The position numbers and the translations under genes were made by a program. A model generated the notes under the pieces. It did no database searches. It was not told the origin of the DNA and saw nothing but the letters and a program-made list of their open reading frames with translations. Shown in pieces: positions 21,169 through 34,201 of a stretch of 64,000 nt of DNA. Source of the stretch: Treponema sp. Marseille-Q3903. GTDB taxonomy: Bacteria > Spirochaetota > Spirochaetia > Treponematales > Treponemataceae. The first letter of the stretch is position 1. Every line of letters begins with the position of its first letter. The DNA is taken from the NCBI RefSeq assembly GCF_014334335.1, contig NZ_JACSEU010000001.1:868001-932000 (forward strand), read 5' to 3'.

Positions 21169-21897
21169 CTATTCGATGTCGAACTTGCCCGGTGTTCTCT
21201 CAATTTTCACCATGATGTCTTCAATAGTTTTACAGTCGGGGTAATCAGCTATAAAGTCAGCTTTTTTCTTTGATGAGATTATTTTTCCCTGCTTGATGTA
21301 TGTTATGCAATCGGCGCACTTTTCAAGGTCGCTTGTTATATGAGTTGAAAAAAGAATTGCGATGCCCTGCTTTGAAAGATATTCAAAAATATCAAGAATC
21401 TCATCTCGAGAGACAGGGTCAAGTCCGCTCGTCGGTTCATCTAAAATCAAAAGCTCAGCATGGTGAGAAAGAGCCGTAGCAAGGCTGAACTTGACTTTCA
21501 TTCCATCAGAAAGCTCCCGAAGTTTTTTTGATTCGTCGAGATTGAACAGTTTTATATATTTTTTGTATTCTCCATCATCCCAATTTTGATAAAAAGTTTT
21601 TGTGACAGATACGATTTTCTTAAGAGTTTTTCGCTCATAATAAGGGGAACTTCCCGTCGCAAAACCTATCCGCTGCTTTATTTTGTCCTCATTGTCAAAA
21701 ATAGATTCGCCAAAATAAAGAACTATTCCTGAATCAGCGTGGACAAGGTTTAAAATTGATTTCATCGTCGTAGTTTTTCCGGCACCGTTTCGCCCAATGA
21801 ACCCCATAATCATTCCGCTCTCCATCTCAAAACTTACGTTGTCGAGCGAGAACGAAGTGTACTTTTTGCAAAGATTTTTAATTTCTAATATTTTCAT
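21169..21897 (-). CDS. ABC transporter ATP-binding protein (ABC-2 partner)
   Basis: A 242-residue ATPase with Walker A GRNGAGKTTT, signature ELSDGMKVKFSLA (LSDGM in place of LSGGQ, as in YtrB/BcrA-like ATPases), Walker B LLILDEPTSGLDP and switch histidine STHITSD. It drives the permease encoded just downstream. The promoter reads TAGACA-17 bp-TATACT and the -10 ends 6 nt before the ATG. There is no Shine-Dalgarno, so the mRNA is predicted leaderless. Confidence 0.92.
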   Translation of the reverse strand: MKILEIKNLCKKYTSFSLDNVSFEMESGMIMGFIGRNGAGKTTTMKSILNLVHADSGIVLYFGESIFDNEDKIKQRIGFATGSSPYYERKTLKKIVSVTKTFYQNWDDGEYKKYIKLFNLDESKKLRELSDGMKVKFSLATALSHHAELLILDEPTSGLDPVSRDEILDIFEYLSKQGIAILFSTHITSDLEKCADCITYIKQGKIISSKKKADFIADYPDCKTIEDIMVKIERTPGKFDIE

Positions 21898-23557: not shown

Positions 23558-25594
23558 CTACATAAACAGATTCGCAATGTGATATATAATTCCTGCAAGA
23601 ATCAATGCTGTAACAAAATAGTAAAGTGCGATTGCTATAGTCCATCTTATAGAATGTGTTTCATTGTGGGTTGCAACTACTGCCTGAAGGCATGGAACAT
23701 TAAATGTTACTGCAATTATAAAAGCGAGTGCCTCAGGGATTCTGATAACCTGTGCTGCAAGTTCTCCGATGTTTCCTACCGCTCCAGCAGCACCTGTTGT
23801 AGAGTTGAATATGTCTCCTGAGTTTGCAAAAATCGCAGAGAGAACTCCGAGTGTTGCTTCTTTTGAAATCATTGCAGCGATAAATGACATAAATGTCTGC
23901 CAGCCCATTCCGAATATTTTTGTTACAGGTGAAATAAATATTCCGATTTTGTATAGAATACTTCCATCAATTCCTGTTTTCGAGTAGCAGAGAAAATAAA
24001 AAATTACACAAACAATCAGCTCTATCGAAAATGCCTTTTTGAAAACATCCCACATTTTGCAGAGTGCCTGTTTGAATATAAAGCCCCATCGCGGTTTGTG
24101 GTAAGGAGGAAGCTCCATTATCATTCCGGTACGTTCTTCCTTTGGATTCAGCTTTCTGCCAAATATTGCTGCTGTGATCACGATGTGCAAAAACATTATC
24201 GCAAAAATCAAAAGCATAACAAGAATCCCGCCTGATGTTCCAAAAAATGCATTCGCAAGTGTAGGGATTACGACAAATGTCGCTCCGCATGGGACAGCCC
24301 ACGCAACTGCCATCGTCAAAATCCGCTGACCCCAAGAGTCAATTACGCGTGTTCCCGAAACCGAACCGATTGTGCAGCCGAATCCTATTAGAAGCGGCAT
24401 GATCGCTTTTCCTTGCAGTCCAATCCTGCTCATCGTTCTGTCAAATAAATAAGAAACTCGAGCCATGTATCCGACTTCTTCTATTATTCCAAAAATGAAA
24501 TTCATCGAAAACACAAAGCCGACCATAGAGATAACCCACCCAAGAGCTGTTATTAATGTCGATTCAATAAAATGAATAACAGCTTGTGAGACGCCCAAAG
24601 TCGGAAGCACTGAACTTAAGAACGGATTGGCAAGCCCTGTGAAAGCTGCCCCAACGCCCATTATCGGAGCTGCAACAATCATAGCGCCAACAAGACCTAA
24701 CAGCAAAATACCGAGTGCAATCACTTTTCCCAAAACAGGGCTGATCGCTTTGCGGTCGAATTTTGATAAAAGTTCGGAATCCTTCTTTGTTTTTACGACG
24801 CTCTCTTTTAAAATACTTTCAATCCATTTGAACTTACAGTTGCTTGCGTACAACGCACCGTCAGCTGTGGCTAATTCAGCTTGTTTTACAGCAGAAAATT
24901 CTTTCAAAACATCTTCATCTTTTTCGAGGAGTTTTCCTGAAATCCAATTTTCAGAGCGTCTTGATTTTTTTACGCTGCCGTTTTTTATCAAATCTTCTAC
25001 AGCTTTTTTTTGTGCGATGAATTCTGCCTTCATTTCGCCGTTTTCAAAAAAATCGTAGAGGCTCGAATCGTCAATTGTTTTCGGCGACTTTACAGATTCT
25101 TCAAGTGTCGCAAAAAAATCGGAATAAGTTTTTTTATCGGGAGCGACTATGCTGCAAACAGGAATATTGAGTTTTTTCTTTAGAGATTCAATATTGATTT
25201 TTTTTCCTTGAGATTCTGCAACGTCGATCATAGTCAGTACCACCATTGCCGGAGTTTTGATTCCTGCAAAGTCGGCAAGCATGTACAAACTTCTTTCAAG
25301 CTGAGAAGCATCGGCGAGGATACAAACTAAATCGAGATCATTTTTTGAGATGTAGTCGCGTGTAACGATTTCTTCATCGGAATTTGCAGAGAGCGAATAA
25401 GAACCCGGAAGGTCTGCAACTTCATAAGTGATGTTGTTGTGAGAAAATGTTCCGATTTTCTTTTCTACTGTTTTTCCGGGCCAGTTTCCTACATGCTGGT
25501 GAAGTCCGGTCAATCCGTTAAAAATAGATGATTTGCCTGAATTCGGCTGACCAAGCAAAGCGATTTTTTTAGATATATTTTCACTCATAATCAT
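23558..25594 (-). CDS. feoB: Ferrous-iron (or related metal) transporter FeoB, atypical motifs
   Basis: A 678-residue protein: an N-terminal G domain, a linker and a polytopic membrane domain that imports Fe2+. G1 is GQPNSGKS (residues 15-22) and G3 is DLPG (61-64). G4 reads TMID (121-124), not the usual N-x-x-D, and the first gate motif reads GFGCTIGSVSGTR, not GCxxP. These changes mark a divergent FeoB subgroup; some FeoB-like proteins prefer Mn2+, so the metal is not certain. The start ATG overlaps the feoA stop (ATGA) and GGAGG lies just before it. Confidence 0.93.
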   Translation of the reverse strand: MIMSENISKKIALLGQPNSGKSSIFNGLTGLHQHVGNWPGKTVEKKIGTFSHNNITYEVADLPGSYSLSANSDEEIVTRDYISKNDLDLVCILADASQLERSLYMLADFAGIKTPAMVVLTMIDVAESQGKKINIESLKKKLNIPVCSIVAPDKKTYSDFFATLEESVKSPKTIDDSSLYDFFENGEMKAEFIAQKKAVEDLIKNGSVKKSRRSENWISGKLLEKDEDVLKEFSAVKQAELATADGALYASNCKFKWIESILKESVVKTKKDSELLSKFDRKAISPVLGKVIALGILLLGLVGAMIVAAPIMGVGAAFTGLANPFLSSVLPTLGVSQAVIHFIESTLITALGWVISMVGFVFSMNFIFGIIEEVGYMARVSYLFDRTMSRIGLQGKAIMPLLIGFGCTIGSVSGTRVIDSWGQRILTMAVAWAVPCGATFVVIPTLANAFFGTSGGILVMLLIFAIMFLHIVITAAIFGRKLNPKEERTGMIMELPPYHKPRWGFIFKQALCKMWDVFKKAFSIELIVCVIFYFLCYSKTGIDGSILYKIGIFISPVTKIFGMGWQTFMSFIAAMISKEATLGVLSAIFANSGDIFNSTTGAAGAVGNIGELAAQVIRIPEALAFIIAVTFNVPCLQAVVATHNETHSIRWTIAIALYYFVTALILAGIIYHIANLFM

Positions 25595-25815
25595 TTTTCC
25601 TCCACAAAAATTTGTTTAGCCTCATCCCGATTTAAAGCGATCATCGTGTCACGGCTGAATATCAAAAGCGGCTGCTTTTTATTGTTGTGAAGCATCTCCA
25701 ATGATGTTCCTGTGTTCAGCCCAATCGATGTGATTCGAGAAAGATAGCGCCTTCCTCCATCAATTTTCACAATGCTGGCTTTTTTGCCGTCTTTTAGTTC
25801 CGTAAGATTAGTCAT
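25591..25815 (-). CDS. feoA: FeoA, SH3-like partner of FeoB
   Basis: A 74-residue SH3-fold protein that binds and modulates FeoB. The core KKASIVKIDGGRRYLSRITSIGLNTGTSLEML matches FeoA. The ATG at 25815 has GGAGG 5 nt upstream, so a longer frame starting upstream is rejected. Its stop overlaps the feoB start by 4 nt. It lies only 52 bp after the ECF ATPase gene on the same strand, so feoAB may be read from the ECF promoter. A weak TTGCAA-17-TAAACA in that gap could act as an internal promoter. Confidence 0.92.
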   Translation of the reverse strand: MTNLTELKDGKKASIVKIDGGRRYLSRITSIGLNTGTSLEMLHNNKKQPLLIFSRDTMIALNRDEAKQIFVEEK

Positions 25816-25867
25816 TTTTCCTCCATAGATCCTGTTTATCTGCAATTAGGTTTGCTTGCAATCAGGC

Positions 25868-27322
25868 TTACCTGTTTTTTAATCTGACTACATAATCGCA
25901 TGAGTTTTTTATGAGCTCCGAGTCATGCGTCACAACAATTATGCTGCGTCCCATTTTTTTTAGTTTTCGCAAAAGAGAGCAAATCTGTTTCATGTGTGCA
26001 AAGTCAAGCCCGGAAGTCGGTTCGTCAAACAAAAGAATTTCGCGCCCGCTTGCTACTGCACACGCAATTGCGAGCCTCTGCTTTTGCCCTCCTGAAAGTG
26101 ACATCGGGTGACAATTTTCAAATCCTGCAAGCCCTAGTTCTGCAAGGATTTTTTTACATACATCTTCGTCCTCGTTTTCCATGCTTATCAGAACTTCGTC
26201 TAAAGCTGTTTCAGTAAAAAGCTGATGGTTTACATCTTGCATAACCATAAATATCTTTTTTAGCCGCTGGCGGCGGTTGTACCATTTTCCGTCAAAGTAC
26301 ATTTTACCTTTGCTTTTTTTTAAGAGCCCGCAGATGCACTGCAAAAAAGTTGTTTTGCCTTCACCGTTTGCTCCTGCTACAGCGATAATCTTGTTTTTTG
26401 GAATTATCATTTGTGAAAAATCTATAACCGGCTTTTTTGAACCTTTGTAACAATAGTAAAAATCACTAAGGATGATGTTTGAATCTGATTTTTCAACAGT
26501 ATTTTTGTCAGAAGATCCTGATTCTATATTTACAAGGTCGAGAGGATTTACAAAATTTCTGCTTCTCAGCCCAAACTTTGAAAGCTCGTCATCGTTCATT
26601 TTTTTCATTTGTGAAGAATCGAGTTCCATTTTGATCTGACCTTTATCGAGAATCACCGTTCTGTCACATAAATCCCAGAGATAAAAAAGCCTGTGTTCTG
26701 CGGCAACAATAGTTTTTCCATCATTTTTCCAGATTTTTATCAGTTCTTTCAAAGTAAAGATAGATTCCGTGTCCAAGTTTGCGGAAGGTTCGTCTAAAAG
26801 AATGATTTTATTTCCGCTTACATCAACGCTCGCACATGCAATTTTCTGTTTTTGCCCACCCGATAAATCAAAAAGGCTTCTGTTCATGAGATTTTCAAGA
26901 TTCATCCGTTTGACTGTGCAGGAAATCCTTTCTCTGATTTTGTCTTCCTGCATTCCCATATTTTCGCATGGAAAAGCGAGTTCGCTCGTTGTGTCGACGT
27001 TGAAAAATTGACTTCTGGGATTTTGAAAAACGGTGCTCACTGTCTTTGCAGTTTCGTAGAGTTCTGCGTTTGAAACATTGCTGCCGTTTACAAGGACTTC
27101 GCCTTCAATCTTGCCTTCATAAAAATTCGGAATCAAGCCGTTTATGAGGCGCAAAATCGTAGTTTTTCCGCAGCCCGAAGCGCCTGTCAAAAGAACAGTC
27201 TCGCCGTCTTTTATCGTAAGACTTATGTTTGAAAGGCATCCAGGCTGTTCCTCTTTTTCATCAGACGAAGAATTTTCGGAAGAATTTTCGTATGAAAAAC
27301 TTACGTTTTTTAATTCAATCAT
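25868..27322 (-). CDS. ECF transporter duplicated ATPase (A-A' fusion)
   Basis: A 484-residue protein with two ABC ATPase domains in tandem, the fused A component of an energy-coupling factor transporter (YkoD-like). Domain 1 has GASGCGKTT, LSGGQKQKIACA and IILLDEPSANLD. Domain 2 has GANGEGKTT, LSGGQKQRLAIA and ILLFDEPTSGLD. The ATG at 27322 overlaps the EcfT stop by 4 nt (ATGA), which excludes a longer upstream start. With the T and S components upstream it forms a complete ECF importer energised by ATP. Confidence 0.93.
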   Translation of the reverse strand: MIELKNVSFSYENSSENSSSDEKEEQPGCLSNISLTIKDGETVLLTGASGCGKTTILRLINGLIPNFYEGKIEGEVLVNGSNVSNAELYETAKTVSTVFQNPRSQFFNVDTTSELAFPCENMGMQEDKIRERISCTVKRMNLENLMNRSLFDLSGGQKQKIACASVDVSGNKIILLDEPSANLDTESIFTLKELIKIWKNDGKTIVAAEHRLFYLWDLCDRTVILDKGQIKMELDSSQMKKMNDDELSKFGLRSRNFVNPLDLVNIESGSSDKNTVEKSDSNIILSDFYYCYKGSKKPVIDFSQMIIPKNKIIAVAGANGEGKTTFLQCICGLLKKSKGKMYFDGKWYNRRQRLKKIFMVMQDVNHQLFTETALDEVLISMENEDEDVCKKILAELGLAGFENCHPMSLSGGQKQRLAIACAVASGREILLFDEPTSGLDFAHMKQICSLLRKLKKMGRSIIVVTHDSELIKNSCDYVVRLKNR

Positions 27323-28050
27323 GAAAACACTCCGAGATTTGCAAGGAGAGTGTAAGAAAAACTTATCAGACAAAAAGCAATCATAACGTAATCAAAAAAT
27401 CCAAAGCCGACTTTGCATATATTTGTTCGTTTTACAGGTCCGCCAAGCCCACGAGAAAGAGATGCAGCCGAAAGTTCCTGCCCGATTCTGACTGAGCAAG
27501 TCATCAGCGGAATCATGCGGTATTCGATTATTTTAAAAATTTTTTTGCCGCCGAACCGAATGTCCCTCATCGCCATAGCTTTGTTTATTGATGAGGCTTC
27601 TTCTGCTACTGTCGGAAAAAATCTGAACATAACTGAAAGCGGAATTGTAAAAAGATTTGGAACATGCATTCTCTCCATGCTGCACATAAACTGGCTGACT
27701 GTAGTTGTCGAGACAAGATAAGCTGCCATCACTATGCTTGGAACAAATCTGATAAGAATTCCGCCTGTAAAAAGAAATATAAAATTGACAAGCCCTTTTG
27801 TACGTGGTAAAAAAAAATATTGACAAGTGTACCCTAAGGCGAGCACGAGAAGCCCTTTCAAAAAAGTTCTAAAGCGCTTTTCGACAAGACACAAAAAAAA
27901 AGGTAAAAACGAAAATATTATGGCAATAACATTTGTGGTGTTGCTGCCAAACCCACCCAAAACGTAAAGCGAAACCATGACAACGCAGAGCAGTTTTATC
28001 CGTGGGTCTAAAAAACATTTTTTATCGAGTGTGGAAGATACAATCTGCAT
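27319..28050 (-). CDS. ECF transporter transmembrane component EcfT (CbiQ family)
   Basis: A 243-residue membrane protein with 4-5 hydrophobic segments. The EcfT marks are LDPRIKLL-type residues near the N-terminus (DPRIKLLCVVMVSLYVL) and the two coupling-helix Ala-Arg-Gly-like motifs near the C-terminus (AMAMRDIRFGG and AASLSRGLGG), which contact the ATPases. It lies 3 bp after the S component and overlaps the ATPase start. It scaffolds the S component to the A-A' ATPase. Confidence 0.92.
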   Translation of the reverse strand: MQIVSSTLDKKCFLDPRIKLLCVVMVSLYVLGGFGSNTTNVIAIIFSFLPFFLCLVEKRFRTFLKGLLVLALGYTCQYFFLPRTKGLVNFIFLFTGGILIRFVPSIVMAAYLVSTTTVSQFMCSMERMHVPNLFTIPLSVMFRFFPTVAEEASSINKAMAMRDIRFGGKKIFKIIEYRMIPLMTCSVRIGQELSAASLSRGLGGPVKRTNICKVGFGFFDYVMIAFCLISFSYTLLANLGVFS

Positions 28051-28053
28051 AAA

Positions 28054-28638
28054 TCAGATAATTCCTGCCTTTGAAAAATGTTTTTTGAGAACGGCAATTC
28101 CAATCAAAGCGCCAAGACAGCCAAAGACAAAAGATGCGACGAGTAAAATCGGGTTCAGCCATTGAGGCATGCAGGCTGTCAAAGTCTGAACATATTCTTC
28201 ACCGAAACTTGTTCGTGTTGAAAAATATTTATCGATATTTATAAAAATCGGAAGTTCATTTGCCCATTCAGTTATACATATAACGCCGTAACATAAAACA
28301 GATGCTTTTTTGCTTGAGTATTTTCCGGCTTTGTATATTAAATCGGCAGTGATTCCCGTGATGAAGCTTGCGATAAAAGGGTAAATGCCCATTCCTGTGA
28401 CCATCAGAAGAGTTCCAATAATTACGGAAAAGATAAAGATCATTCCGAACTTCTTAACTTTAGTCAGAAAAAGCATGAACGGAATTCCACCTGCGAGCGG
28501 ACAAAAAACTGTCAAAAGCGGAATCATAACAGGTATGAATCCTAAAAATGATACAACCATCACGATGATAAAAAAGATTGCGCAATAGATTCCGATGTTT
28601 ACAAGATCTTTGCCTTCGAGTTTGTTTGAGTTTTTCAT
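28054..28638 (-). CDS. ECF transporter substrate-binding S component (MptD / Trep_Strep family)
   Basis: A 194-residue protein with five or six transmembrane helices, resembling the Trep_Strep/MptD family of predicted ECF S components. The substrate of this family is not firmly known. The N-terminal KLEGKDLVNIGIYCAIFF is a typical S-component first helix with an Ala-rich face. The ATG at 28638 has GGAGACTTT upstream. It opens the ECF operon, whose promoter (TTGACA-17-TATAGT, minus strand, 28738-28766) is overlapped by a TetR-type palindrome. The linked feo genes suggest an iron-related cargo such as heme or a chelate, but this is inference. Confidence 0.85.
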   Translation of the reverse strand: MKNSNKLEGKDLVNIGIYCAIFFIIVMVVSFLGFIPVMIPLLTVFCPLAGGIPFMLFLTKVKKFGMIFIFSVIIGTLLMVTGMGIYPFIASFITGITADLIYKAGKYSSKKASVLCYGVICITEWANELPIFINIDKYFSTRTSFGEEYVQTLTACMPQWLNPILLVASFVFGCLGALIGIAVLKKHFSKAGII

Positions 28639-28723
28639 AAAGTCTCCATAAATATAAGTAGAGCGGATCTTAGGAATCAAAATTCATACGAGATTTGCCG
28701 CAAGATATACATGTTTATCTTTT

Positions 28724-28739
28724 GTTAGATATTGCTAAC
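28724..28739. promoter_or_regulatory. Putative TetR operator, site 1 (ECF operon)
   Basis: GTTAGATATTGCTAAC: a perfect GTTAG-N6-CTAAC palindrome that touches the -10 and covers the predicted start of the ECF operon, and lies 152 bp upstream of the divergent tetR start. It is one of four matching sites. Confidence 0.65.
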
Positions 28740-28766
28740 TATAACGATGCTATATTTAATTGTCAA
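28738..28766 (-). promoter_or_regulatory. Predicted promoter of the ECF(-feo) operon
   Basis: On the minus strand TTGACA (28766-28761, perfect) and TATAGT (28743-28738, 5/6) are 17 bp apart. The 5' leader is about 93 nt. The TetR-type palindrome abuts the -10. Confidence 0.75.
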
Positions 28767-28891
28767 GGGTACGCATGAGATGTGATGAGTTTATCGTCAG
28801 GCAGTTCTCTGACTTTGAGTTTTTGACTGTGAGTTTTTGTTCTTAAAAGTTTTCAGTTTTTGTGATAATATCGATGTAAAGGTTTGTGGTG

Positions 28892-29500
28892 ATGGGAAAA
28901 TTTCAACGGAAAACAAAAGATGAAAGACGACATGAAATAATGGATGCTGCAAAGCGAGTATTTATAAAAAAAGGATATCGTTATTCAACAATGGAAGATG
29001 TCATTGCAAATACAAGTCTTTCAAAGGGCGGCGTGTATCAATACTATAAAAACACAAAATCGATTATGTTTGACATCATGAAAGAGGGAAATTTCACGCG
29101 ATTTTTGAAAACAGAAGATATAATTGGAAAATTTTCTTCAACGAAAGATGTTTTTGAAGTGATGACTCAAATAGCAATTGCAAAGCTTTTTGAGGATATT
29201 CCAGAAAAAAAATTGTACATAATGTTTCTTTCTGAGATCATGTATGACAAAGAAACCGAAAAGCTTTTTTATAAACTGGAATCTGAAGGTCATAACTATT
29301 TAATAAAAAATCTAGAATCAATTCCTCAATTTTCTTCAGCAAAAGCGGAAAGTAAAAAAAACGTTGCGCTGTTATACTCAAGAATTTTTAACGGAATTCT
29401 GATTATCTATGAACTTCTTGGCGACAAAAATCCATTTTTAGAAAATCAAAAAGAACTCCACGATTTTATCTACAATTTGATGAAAAAAATAATTTCATAA
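28892..29500 (+). CDS. TetR family transcriptional regulator
   Basis: A 202-residue regulator. The TetR DNA-binding domain fills residues 9-55: RRHEIMDAAKRVFIKKGYRY, then the helix-turn-helix TMEDVIANTSLSKGGVYQYYKNTKSI. The remaining helical domain should bind an unknown ligand. The ATG at 28892 has AAAGG 9 nt upstream; two in-frame GTGs just before it are alternatives. It lies between the ECF operon (divergent) and a MATE pump (same direction). Four similar palindromes in nearby promoters are the natural candidates for its operators, although none sits in its own promoter. Confidence 0.92.
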   Translation: MGKFQRKTKDERRHEIMDAAKRVFIKKGYRYSTMEDVIANTSLSKGGVYQYYKNTKSIMFDIMKEGNFTRFLKTEDIIGKFSSTKDVFEVMTQIAIAKLFEDIPEKKLYIMFLSEIMYDKETEKLFYKLESEGHNYLIKNLESIPQFSSAKAESKKNVALLYSRIFNGILIIYELLGDKNPFLENQKELHDFIYNLMKKIIS

Positions 29501-29526
29501 ACTGACAATGCTCATAATACTGACTA

Positions 29527-29555
29527 TTGACATAAAAGTTAGATATCACTATCTT
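29527..29555 (+). promoter_or_regulatory. MATE promoter with TetR operator, site 2, in its spacer
   Basis: TTGACA (29527-29532, perfect), a 17-bp spacer and TATCTT (29550-29555, 4/6). The palindrome GTTAGATATCACTATC (29538-29553) fills the spacer and overlaps the -10, a classic repressor position. Its wider context AAAG...CTTT extends the dyad to about 22 bp. Confidence 0.65.
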
Positions 29556-29649
29556 TTTAATCGACGGTTGCGTCAGCAGGAGCGGCAAACAAAAAGTATG
29601 CGGGCTTCAACTGAGCAAAGTCGTTTTATTCTTTTATTATGGAGGTTTT

Positions 29650-30987
29650 ATGAAAGATAAACGTGAGCATTTGATTTCGGACAATATGTTAAAATTGATG
29701 CTGGAACTCAGCATTCCCGGAATTATCGGTATGTTGGTTATCAGCTTGTATAACTTTGTCGATGCGATTTTTGTTGGAAGGTACGTCGGAGAAACTGCGC
29801 TCGGTGCAATAAGCCTTGCCTACACATTTACGCTGGTCAACAACGGAATTGCAACTTTGATAGGAATCGGTTCTGCCTCTGTTTTGTCGCGTGCAGTTGG
29901 CAGAAAAGACCGGAATACAATTGATTCGATTATGGGAAATGTTTTTGTCCTGACGCTGATTTTTTCTTCTATAGTTACTTTGGTCGGAATTATTTTTGCA
30001 TCGAATCTTTTATCATTGGTGGGTGCCGAAGGTGAGATGCTTTCGCTCGGAACAAAGTATCTTAGGATTGTTTATGCGGCTTCTATTTTTGTAAATTTCG
30101 GGCAGGCTGCCAATATGGTTATGCGTGGTGAAGGTAAAATGGGCTTAGCCATGCTTCTGATGGGTATAAGTGCCGTGCTCAACATAATTTTGGATGCGCT
30201 ATTTGTCATTGTATTCAAATGGGGAATTGAAGGGGCTGCCATCGCAACAGTGATTTCTCAGATTGTCCTTGCCATATGCAATTTTTTGTATTTTGCAATT
30301 TTCAGCAAAGATGTAAGATTTCATAAAATCAGGTTGGAAAAATCAATTGTAGGCGAAACAATATCTGTCGGAGTTTCTGCAATGATGATGCAGGTTTTCT
30401 CGCTTATTCAGCAAGCTGTAATGTATTCAACTCTAAAACGTTATGGTGGCGAAAATCAAGTTATTTTGATGGGTGCTTTTTTTAGATACATGATGTTGAG
30501 TTTTATTCCGCTTTGGGGAATAAGTCAGGGATTTCAACCATTTGCAGGCACGAACTTTGGAGCAAAGAAATTTGACAGGGTAAAAAAAGGAACATTCCTT
30601 TTTTACGCTTTCGGACTTTTACTTGCTTTTATCTTTTGGATTACGTTCATGCTTTCTCCACAAAAGATTCTCGGTCTTTTTATGAACAATGATTCGCTCA
30701 TAGCGTCTGGTAGAGTGAACGCTATCCTTTCATTTTCAATATTCCCACTCTCTGCAATAATGATTATAAATCTAACGTTGTGCCAGTCGATGGGGAAAGC
30801 AAAACCGGCGGGGCTTCTTGTCGTTGCCCGACAACTTGTTTTGTATGTTCCTTTTGTCCTTCTTTTACCGCTTATATTTGGAATCCGAGGCGTATGGCTT
30901 ACATCGCCAATCGTAGACACTTTTGTCACTTTGATTTCAATTGCAATAGTAGCAAAAATTTTTGCAAAAGATTTAAAAACTAGATGA
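29650..30987 (+). CDS. MATE family efflux transporter
   Basis: A 445-residue, twelve-helix Na+/H+-coupled multidrug/toxin exporter. Typical patterns are SIPGIIGMLVISLYNFVDAIFVG near the start, GAISLAYTFT, and the second-half repeat LGALSGFQP-like region (ISQGFQPFAGTNFGAKK). GGAGG precedes the ATG. The promoter holds a TetR-type palindrome, and the tetR gene lies directly upstream in the same direction, the usual arrangement for an inducible pump. A strong hairpin terminator follows the stop. Confidence 0.93.
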   Translation: MKDKREHLISDNMLKLMLELSIPGIIGMLVISLYNFVDAIFVGRYVGETALGAISLAYTFTLVNNGIATLIGIGSASVLSRAVGRKDRNTIDSIMGNVFVLTLIFSSIVTLVGIIFASNLLSLVGAEGEMLSLGTKYLRIVYAASIFVNFGQAANMVMRGEGKMGLAMLLMGISAVLNIILDALFVIVFKWGIEGAAIATVISQIVLAICNFLYFAIFSKDVRFHKIRLEKSIVGETISVGVSAMMMQVFSLIQQAVMYSTLKRYGGENQVILMGAFFRYMMLSFIPLWGISQGFQPFAGTNFGAKKFDRVKKGTFLFYAFGLLLAFIFWITFMLSPQKILGLFMNNDSLIASGRVNAILSFSIFPLSAIMIINLTLCQSMGKAKPAGLLVVARQLVLYVPFVLLLPLIFGIRGVWLTSPIVDTFVTLISIAIVAKIFAKDLKTR

Positions 30988-30994
30988 TACGTTT

Positions 30995-31034
30995 CTCTGC
31001 TGTAAACTGAAATATGTTTTACGGCAGAGCTTTT
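30995..31034. terminator. Bidirectional terminator between MATE and the chemoreceptor gene
   Basis: CTCTGCTGTAAA (30995-31006) pairs with TTTACGGCAGAG (31018-31029), 12 bp with one G-U and an 11-nt loop, followed by CTTTTG. It lies between convergent genes. Confidence 0.7.
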
Positions 31035-31116
31035 GTGAATCAGAATCTATGATATTTCCATTTTTATTTCCAAATGAGGTTTTTGGAGTTTTTGATTAGG
31101 CGATGTCAACGCCGAT

Positions 31117-31959
31117 TTAAAATATTTCCTCGAGGAATTCGTGGATTCGTTTTATAACTCCAAGGATGACGTGTGTATCTTTCATTGAAGAATTCACTTT
31201 TTCAAGCGAACCGAACCCGTCTGAAAGCGCTCTTGCTTCTTCTTTTATCGCAAATGTTATTTCTGAGAGAGATTGTCCCGATTCGTTTAGAGTCCTTGCG
31301 TTGCTGTCGAAATTTGAAAGGACTGAAGACAGCGAAACGTTGAAGCGCGAAATCAAAAGTGAAAACTCGCTCATCTGAGTGTTGATGTTTTCCACTGTTT
31401 TTTCAAACTCATCTATGCTTTCTGTGATTTGCGCTGCAAAATTGCCTGTTTGCCCTGCGAGTTTGTGGACTTCGTTTGCAATGATTTTAAATCCGGCTCC
31501 GAACGAACCTGCATGGGCTGCTTCGATAGAGGCATTTATAGCGAGAATATTTGTTTTTTGCACAACGTTTTGTATGTTCCCGGTGATATTCATTACTTTT
31601 TCTGTTTGGAGTTTTAAGTCGTTGAAAGACCTTGTAAGTGTTGCAAAATCCTTTGAAGTTGTTTCTATTTCAGTAACGCGGTCGCTTATCTCTGTTCTCA
31701 GAGAATCGTTTGCCGACAAAATTTCTTCCATCATTGAATCTATGTTATCTGTGTGAGAAGCCGTGCTTTTACTTGCAGCCTGCATCTCTTCAAATGCGCT
31801 GACTATATTTTGCAGTTCATTGCGAACGGAATTCATCGCGTTGTCCAAAATGTGCAGAGAATTCATTGTTACTGAAGAGATAGTAACGCTTTTGTTGTAA
31901 CCTACAGAAAGTTTGTCTACAGCATCTGAATAATTTTTTATTTGTTCACTAACGTCCAT
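31117..31959 (-). CDS. Soluble methyl-accepting chemotaxis receptor, ODP partner
   Basis: A 280-residue cytoplasmic receptor without transmembrane helices or HAMP domain; essentially a coiled-coil signalling hairpin. The tip reads NIQNVVQKTNILAINASIEAAHAGSFG, then GFKIIANEVHKLAGQTG. This matches the MCP tip that docks CheA/CheW (usually QTNLLALNAAIEAARAGE), with several substitutions. It lies 28 bp after the ODP gene. In T. denticola a di-iron ODP protein binds a comparable soluble receptor as an Fe(II)/O2 sensor for taxis; this pair looks like the same system. The operon carries an upstream TetR-type palindrome. Confidence 0.9.
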   Translation of the reverse strand: MDVSEQIKNYSDAVDKLSVGYNKSVTISSVTMNSLHILDNAMNSVRNELQNIVSAFEEMQAASKSTASHTDNIDSMMEEILSANDSLRTEISDRVTEIETTSKDFATLTRSFNDLKLQTEKVMNITGNIQNVVQKTNILAINASIEAAHAGSFGAGFKIIANEVHKLAGQTGNFAAQITESIDEFEKTVENINTQMSEFSLLISRFNVSLSSVLSNFDSNARTLNESGQSLSEITFAIKEEARALSDGFGSLEKVNSSMKDTHVILGVIKRIHEFLEEIF

Positions 31960-31987
31960 AAAATCAGTTATCCATAATAAGAGAAAT

Positions 31988-32746
31988 CTACATTAAATCT
32001 ACGCCGCATTTCAAGTTTGAAAGCCAATTAAGAAACTCTGTTATAGATTCTCCTGCGTAAAGCGCTCCGTGCTGAGGTGCGATGATTTTGGGGTTTATCG
32101 CACGAACTCTCTCACACCATTTTTTTACAATTGAATTTGAAGCCATATATCTTTTATGAAAACCTTCGATAAGGGGAACATGTTGTGCAAAATCTTCGAC
32201 AAATACATACTCTTTGCCTTCGTCAAAAACAGCTGCGCCGATGTCACCTGAAAAAAGAATTTTTGATTTAGGGTCATAAAGATTAAAATTACCTGGAGAA
32301 TGCATAAAATGGGCAGGGATGCACTGGAGTTCTGCGTTCTCTGATATTTTGATTGTGCTGCCGTCATCAGGAATAGGGACAATTCTTTTTGAGTCAACAA
32401 TTCCAAAGTGAGGTAAAAATCTAACCCAAAGTGAAGAAATGTGAATCTGTGCTTTAGTTATACCGAGCCACATTGCAATACCAGAAGAAACATCAGGGTC
32501 TTGATGTGAATAAAAGATAACATCTATATTGTCTAACGATATGTATCGGCTTACGGCAGAGACTACATGTGCGAATATATGAACTCCACCCGGATCCAAA
32601 AGTACACCCCTGTTGTGATCTATAATCAGATATTGCATTGTCTGTATTTCATCGCTTGAATCGACGTCATCAACGCCGAGCCAAATAAATTTATGGTCAT
32701 CATCTTCATAAAGTATTCGACCATTTACATCATTTACATCTATCAT
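31988..32746 (-). CDS. ODP-like diiron metallo-beta-lactamase-fold oxygen/iron sensor
   Basis: A 252-residue protein with the MBL fold of flavodiiron proteins but no flavodoxin domain. Metal-ligand positions are visible: SHQDPD (H-x-D-x-D), HFMHSPGN, SGDIGAA and APQHG. The H-x-E/D-x-D-H motif lacks the final His (Val instead), as expected for the non-enzymatic oxygen-binding diiron proteins of treponemes. Its downstream neighbour is a soluble chemoreceptor, so it likely reports Fe(II)/O2 status to the flagellar motor. The ATG at 32746 begins the conserved sequence; a longer upstream start would cross the operator. Only a weak Shine-Dalgarno is visible. Confidence 0.87.
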   Translation of the reverse strand: MIDVNDVNGRILYEDDDHKFIWLGVDDVDSSDEIQTMQYLIIDHNRGVLLDPGGVHIFAHVVSAVSRYISLDNIDVIFYSHQDPDVSSGIAMWLGITKAQIHISSLWVRFLPHFGIVDSKRIVPIPDDGSTIKISENAELQCIPAHFMHSPGNFNLYDPKSKILFSGDIGAAVFDEGKEYVFVEDFAQHVPLIEGFHKRYMASNSIVKKWCERVRAINPKIIAPQHGALYAGESITEFLNWLSNLKCGVDLM

Positions 32747-32773
32747 GACTTGGATTTTAACATATAAAATATT

Positions 32774-32789
32774 GTTAGTAAACACTATC
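32774..32789. promoter_or_regulatory. Putative TetR operator, site 3 (ODP/chemoreceptor operon)
   Basis: GTTAGTAAACACTATC, matching GTTAG-N6-CTAWC, 27 bp upstream of the ODP start. It overlaps plausible minus-strand promoter elements such as TTGATA at 32791-32786. It is 72 bp from site 4. Confidence 0.6.
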
Positions 32790-32838
32790 AACATAAGCAA
32801 CTCAATTATATTGAATATTCTAACAAAAAACGTTATTC

Positions 32839-34201
<1,363 letters not shown>

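Follow-up and report, generated by a model that had tools for sequence, protein, structure and literature searches.

Palindromic sites upstream of transporter and enolase genes in Treponema sp. Marseille-Q3903 as probable operators of a short DtxR-family repressor

The window analysed here is a stretch of 64,000 nucleotides from Treponema sp. Marseille-Q3903 (contig NZ_JACSEU010000001.1, positions 868,001 to 932,000; genome G000 in our numbering), in which an energy-coupling factor (ECF) transporter operon with feoA and feoB, a TetR-family gene, a MATE efflux gene, an ODP-family gene, a methyl-accepting chemotaxis protein (MCP) signalling-domain gene and an enolase gene are accompanied by four short palindromes, here called operators 1 to 4 (Table 1). 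An earlier note on this DNA had listed the palindromes and had noticed no further match in the window; all four proved to be at the positions given, and the pattern GTTAGNNNNNNCTAWC occurs at these 4 places only. They give 6 strand-matches, against a mean of 0.04 in shuffled sequence, and 6 was reached in 0 of 100 shuffles, so that chance does not account for them. Operator 1 (GTTAGATATTGCTAAC) and operator 4 (GTTAGTAAAAGCTAAC) are perfect palindromes, and operator 2 (GTTAGATATCACTATC) and operator 3 (GTTAGTAAACACTATC) carry one mismatch each. The likely ECF start codon is about 86 bp downstream of operator 1; operator 3 lies between ODP and eno at a distance of 72 bp from operator 4, and the first base of operator 4 is 54 bp upstream of the enolase start. 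The MCP gene and the ODP gene, separated by a 28-bp gap, probably form one transcript.

Table 1. Genes and palindromic sites of the window, in window coordinates
Feature	Position	Strand	Basis or remark
feoB	23558..25594	-	TIGR00437 above cut-off
feoA	25591..25845	-	PF04023 above cut-off
ECF double ATPase, CbiO type	25868..27373	-	two ABC_tran stretches
ECF T component, CbiQ type	27319..28050	-	PF02361 above cut-off
Trep_Strep (MptD-type) ECF S component	28054..28680, likely ATG near 28638	-	PF09605 and TIGR02185 above cut-off
Operator 1	28724..28739	.	between tetR and the ECF(-feo) operon; sequence match and promoter scan
TetR-family gene	28892..29500	+	PF00440
Operator 2	29538..29553	.	MATE promoter; sequence match and promoter scan
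MATE efflux transporter	29650..30987	+	TIGR00797 above cut-off
MCP signalling-domain gene	31117..31959	-	PF00015
ODP-family metallo-beta-lactamase-fold gene	31988..32746, likely start near 32746	-	PF19583, 261.9 bits
Operator 3	32774..32789	.	upstream of ODP; sequence match and weak promoter-like overlap
Operator 4	32846..32861	.	upstream of enolase; among the 19/30 enolase loci with a conserved site
Enolase	32900..34201	+	TIGR01060, 649.6 bits

The palindromes had also been said to lie in promoters, which agreed with our consensus promoter scan for three of them. A promoter-like TTGACA-17-TATAGT with 11 of 12 consensus bases runs on the minus strand from 28766 to 28738 ahead of the ECF operon, its second hexamer sharing two bases with operator 1, and TTGACA-17-TATCTT on the plus strand (29527-29555, 10 of 12 consensus bases) encloses operator 2 ahead of the MATE gene. 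A weaker promoter-like site, TTTACT-17-TAAAAT (minus strand, 32782 to 32754), overlaps operator 3 ahead of ODP. The claimed enolase promoter, in contrast, was absent from the scan output, and TTGAGT-17-TGTAAA is readable there by eye only. Because the scan gave 22 promoter-like sites in total against a shuffle mean of 13.6, individual promoter calls are weak evidence. The overlap of sites with promoter elements suggests repression at the ECF and MATE genes.

In the whole genome (2.51 Mb), GTTAGNNNNNNCTAWC was found at 12 places, and a likely start of an open reading frame (ORF) lies within about 100 bp downstream at 11 of them, the exception being C3:21313. Outside the window the pattern occurs ahead of an ABC-transporter gene that has Trep_Strep ECF genes behind it, at a TetR-Trep_Strep-CbiQ-CbiO cluster, at an ABC pair beside a TetR gene, at a CbiQ-CbiO-Trep_Strep cluster and at a family-5 solute-binding protein gene. 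Two further places, 73 bp from each other and followed after another 75 bp by a one-mismatch site, lie between a DUF3793-flavodoxin pair and a sulfonate-type ABC transporter. The commonest form of the motif is GTTAGY-N4-RCTAAC. Across 59 genomes of the genus, perfect GTTAG-N6-CTAAC occurred 470 times and the reversed pattern 102 times, with a maximum of 62 sites per genome; sites outnumbered the control in 43 genomes, equalled it in 4 and fell below it in 12. In 74 genomes from other genera of the family, the totals were 211 against 132 for the reversed pattern, with 20 and 19 sites in two genomes of one genus, which argues that the operator code is not uniform across the family. Sites are often paired or tripled, the distance between their starts being 23-25, about 42-46 or 72-75 bp (L130:5822/5845, L131:6086/6130, L014:4967/5040), spacings that are possibly multiples of helical turns.

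Among 85 perfect sites in the fetched loci, 81 were near an ORF start, compared with 34.5% of 4250 random positions, and 77 were outside ORFs of at least 100 aa, compared with 15.5%. To describe the neighbouring genes, 65 site clusters were taken from regions selected by us around listed sites in 11 genomes (locus L136 and one-mismatch sites outside the window being excluded) and labelled by the best BLAST match to 25 reference groups. The most frequent labels were ABC-exporter-type (16 clusters), flavodoxin (7), Trep_Strep (7), CbiO (6, a label that also picks up other ABC ATPases), CbiQ (6) and TetR (6), followed by DUF3793 (5), AraC (5), eno (4), feoB (4), MATE (4), MntP (3), xylA (3) and gpmA (2); 39 of the 65 clusters included an unclassified gene. 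MATE genes stand near sites in genomes G047 and G001 as well, and examples of xylA and gpmA beside sites clear the NCBIfam cut-offs.

The enolase gene allowed a direct comparison among orthologues. The window's copy is the sole enolase match in its genome, and in 30 enolase loci (of 39 matches) a site with at most one mismatch was present within 300 bp upstream in 19, and a perfect one in 16, while none of 30 phosphoglycerate kinase (PGK) loci (of 59 matches) had an upstream site. GTTAG-N6-CTAAC occurred 31 times in the enolase loci and never at spacings 0-5 or 7-13, and the PGK loci had the two half-sites at none of the spacings 0-13. For gpmA, 16 of 66 matches were kept, the rest being short, weak or partial; 7 of these loci had a site, perfect in 5, and all 10 half-site pairs among spacings 0-13 had spacing 6. 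The conservation upstream of orthologues that the earlier note wanted checked is thus present at enolase. The claim that a single regulon includes the ECF(-feo) operon together with the MATE, ODP and enolase genes is supported.

These sites appear to place enolase, a core glycolytic gene, under iron control. Alternatively, the site near enolase could act only on the divergent neighbour, here ODP, and leave enolase itself outside iron regulation; the ODP/eno intergenic region of the window carries two sites, and in several relatives enolase is 128-166 bp from its site. In loci L143 and L159, however, sites lie 39-91 bp upstream of enolase with no divergent ORF adjoining, in L143 gpmA directly follows enolase, and gpmA has sites of its own in the loci counted above, so we regard a restriction to the neighbour as unlikely. 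Several results weigh against iron control at enolase and gpmA: the site is missing at 11 enolase loci and at 9 gpmA loci, including gpmA of G000, and the enolase search gave no match in 24 of the 59 genus genomes. Either these enolases were overlooked by a first look or some treponemes are without a standard enolase; the genomes concerned include G018 and G043, both listed as 99% complete.

As regards the regulator, the earlier note proposed the TetR-family protein, whose gene does stand among the palindromes, between operators 1 and 2. TetR-family genes also adjoin sites at several other places in G000, as they do in 6 of the 65 clusters, and FepR-FepA of Listeria offers a precedent for a TetR-MATE pair. 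Against the 58 other genus genomes, however, the best match of the window TetR was 37.9 bits over residues 7-83 (self-match 428.5 bits), which is not of orthologue grade, although the motif is enriched in those genomes and, as described below, around dtxR in Clostridia; furthermore, the site-adjoining TetR genes vary in their recognition region (by eye). The proposal was therefore not borne out and was dropped. We consider it highly improbable that this TetR binds the four sites as the head of a local regulon of its own; more probably, its gene is one of the targets or a bystander.

Two other metalloregulators were considered as well. G000 encodes TroR and a single Fur-family protein, and in T. 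denticola both manganese and iron elicit a response of TroR (PMC2628430). The best motif match in 10.2 kb around troR-troABC nevertheless has 2 mismatches, that in 3.3 kb around the Fur-family gene has 3, and the clostridial association of the motif is with homologues of another protein, DtxR-A. With no operator of the GTTAG-N6-CTAAC kind near their genes, TroR and Fur are unsupported, and we give either of them hardly any chance of being the regulator. TrtA and OxtR1 of T. denticola were also considered; the sections of PMC12724145 drawn on here give no operator for them.

DtxR-A is one of two DtxR-family proteins of G000, the other being TroR, encoded beside troABC. It has 124 aa and is encoded at C1:391364-391735 (L026:4980-5354, C1:391361-391735), outside the window and about 476 kb away. 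We used the best 80 loci fetched solely by homology to DtxR-A, without motif selection, whose titles name mostly Lachnospiraceae and other Clostridia (three say only 'bacterium'). The motif occurred 66 times in 38 of these loci, compared with a total of 4 occurrences for 13 other spacings and with 0 and 1 for two rearranged control motifs. In 26 of 74 loci (39 when one mismatch was allowed) the 400 bp ahead of dtxR contained a perfect site, as against 23 of 2769 other 400-bp windows. In L263, L271 and L280 the divergent neighbour of dtxR is a feoA-like gene with a feoB-like gene behind it, and the site separates dtxR from this neighbour (feo named by eye). In the dtxR-A loci of Treponema (30 of 58 matches) there were 7 perfect sites at spacing 6 and 1 across 13 other spacings, and in some genomes many sites are on the contig of dtxR-A (G003 17/36, G015 7/9, G047 24/37).

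The analysis itself yielded the motif with its fixed spacing, the enrichment across the genus, the conservation at enolase and, in two phyla, the association with dtxR-A and feo genes. In our judgement these results are best explained, with high probability, by GTTAG-N6-CTAAC being the one-dimer operator of DtxR-A, a short iron-type repressor of the DtxR family that would bind these sites. The signal suggested earlier, iron, heme or oxygen state, would then narrow to iron, probably.

A number of observations count against this assignment. Besides the 12 genomes in which sites are fewer than the control, a perfect site is missing from 42 of the 80 clostridial loci; within 10 kb around dtxR-A of G000 the best site is not under 3 mismatches; and only 3 of the 30 Treponema dtxR-A genes are preceded, within 350 bp, by a site with no more than one mismatch. 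G029, G039, G045 and G051 have a DtxR-A relative and no perfect site, while sites without a DtxR-A match occur in G008 (34 sites, 76% complete), G022 (6, 79%) and G020 (5, 95%), and in other genomes with listed sites these are off the dtxR-A contig (e.g., G025 0/19, G009 0/7). Whether a genome has DtxR-A said nothing about how many sites it holds, since relatives with 39-52% identity occur in 53 of the 59 genus genomes.

DtxR-A passes the curated cut-off for Fe_dep_repr_C (54.6 versus 27 bits) and is below the NCBIfam MntR equivalog cut-off (86.9 versus 153 bits), which TroR of G000 passes with 161 bits. In an alignment of 30 DtxR-A sequences, E11, H77, E102 and H103 (MntR numbering) are invariant, Cys99 is present in all 30, and position 8 is Met in 18; TroR retains Asp8 and Glu99. 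Cys and Met at these ligand positions favour iron, and the ligands of DtxR-A look iron-type. In the opposite direction, position 8 is the MntR-like Asp in 12 of 30 sequences, including that of G000, and for the two DtxR-A proteins scanned the highest scores, below cut-off, came from MntR models, so that the metal may instead be manganese.

Considering these results, we have formed the following picture. Iron-loaded DtxR-A would occupy the promoters and keep feoAB, the ECF and ABC transporters, flavodoxin, MATE and ODP low, and in many treponemes phosphoglycerate mutase and enolase would also be held down; as iron falls, DtxR-A would leave its operators. The effect would thus be repression, least certainly so at enolase, and in the window's genome the acting regulator would be its own DtxR-A. 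In a FastTree tree of 111 sequences this DtxR-A groups with 54 clostridial sequences (support 0.98) and away from the remaining 29 Treponema sequences; the sampling leans clostridial because the clostridial loci were picked by similarity to this very protein, and contamination is disfavoured because the gene is on a 2.2-Mb contig. The tree suggests that the regulator of G000 was replaced via horizontal transfer while the operator code was kept. A broader proposition, to which we give about equal belief and doubt, is that in treponemes a DtxR iron sensor exerts direct control over lower glycolysis, with one-dimer operators at the genes for enolase, phosphoglycerate mutase and xylose isomerase. 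The gpm of the T. pallidum tro operon would then be one case of a general circuit linking metal and glycolysis, and the window's lineage would have swapped this regulator for one of clostridial origin that recognises the same operator and may also drive a small RNA.

A layered arrangement is compatible with DtxR-A as the main regulator: DtxR-A would set the iron regulon, and several TetR or AraC proteins would share or overlap some of its sites and add local, ligand-specific control of their own ECF or ABC operons. TetR-like and AraC-like genes recur among the 65 clusters, as counted above, and a one-mismatch site between a TetR gene and an ABC pair was found again at C1:2102431, with a Trep_Strep cluster adjoining. 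Such genes could equally be mere targets, however, and we hold this added layer to be rather doubtful.

DtxR-A and its proposed operator were compared with known systems. IdeR and DtxR of Actinobacteria (box TTAGGTTAGSCTAACCTAA) share with DtxR-A the protein family, the TTAG-N6-CTAA core and spacing and iron-uptake targets, and each IdeR monomer reads one CCTAA repeat, the one-dimer consensus being TTAGGNNNNCCTAA (parts of PMC8464063 used here). Our motif has the same N6 spacing, so that one dimer per site would be expected by analogy, and DtxR-A has Cys at the position of DtxR Cys102. In contrast to the 19-bp two-dimer box of IdeR and DtxR, the site here is a single-dimer palindrome with an outer G and an inner pyrimidine; the two-dimer-type GTTAG-N1-CTAAC was absent from the enolase, gpmA and PGK loci and had a single occurrence in the dtxR-A loci. 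Proteins of the DtxR-A type are also shorter (about 124-136 aa, whereas the listed full-length chains of DtxR, IdeR and SloR have 214-233 aa), and enolase, phosphoglycerate mutase and xylose isomerase as targets set the system apart. MntR provides the closest sequences in PDB, the best NCBIfam match (below cut-off) and the same short two-domain form, and differs in having Glu at position 99, where DtxR-A has Cys; the targets here are iron-type. TroR resembles DtxR-A as a DtxR-family metalloregulator of treponemes, and differs as a separate gene (C1:1739601) with MntR-type ligands and no GTTAG-N6-CTAAC site nearby. A MepR-like regulator was considered as well, since mepA of Staphylococcus aureus shows a GTTAG signature at a MATE gene (PMC3617543 and PMC8044140, in the parts used here), although MepR belongs to the MarR family.

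In our searches of an open-access library we found no description of this operator, of the treponeme regulon or of enolase under a DtxR protein; Treponema, enolase, DtxR and iron together gave nothing there, and an iron/DtxR/enolase link may have been described elsewhere. The precedents are the one-dimer IdeR sites and, in the relevant passages of PMC2628430, the tro operon, which includes the glycolytic gene gpm in T. pallidum and is without it in T. denticola; that paper mentions enolase 0 times. A report on metal-independent phosphoglycerate mutase and nutritional immunity (PMC6684088, seen in part) fits gpmA in a metal regulon. The motif would provide a readable iron-response code for treponemes, to which many ECF and ABC transporters of unknown substrate are tied, and a one-dimer operator is proposed for a DtxR subfamily common to Spirochaetota and gut Clostridia. 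The phosphoglycerate mutase of the T. pallidum tro operon, an old oddity, would become an example of how glycolysis may be tied to metal supply in general, a connection open to testing.

At the orphan site C3:21313 a tetR gene and larE converge, with the site between their 3' ends (L019:4960-5130; G000:C3 about 21272-21442). A TTGACA promoter-like sequence is ahead of it (by eye) and a strong terminator-like hairpin about 100 nt on, the 130 nt folding with -34.0 kcal/mol. Rfam gave nothing above threshold for this region, its two matches being microRNA families far below gathering scores, and blastn against the fetched loci gave no full-length match beyond G000, most matches shown being operator-sized. 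We regard the region as a candidate iron-controlled small RNA.

In G003, G025 and G047 there are xylose isomerase genes downstream of sites (L131:259-1581, L107:4353-4392, L135:6480-6520), and the one in G003 passes TIGR02630; xylose isomerase is a third sugar-metabolism gene in the putative regulon. In G003, an iron island of about 50 kb (C25:1-52000; L129-L131) has 17 perfect sites and contains feoB genes, ABC pairs, ECF clusters, eno, gpmA, xylA, flavodoxin, a heavy-metal P-type ATPase and dtxR-A, which is flanked by flavodoxin-DUF3793 and a feoB.

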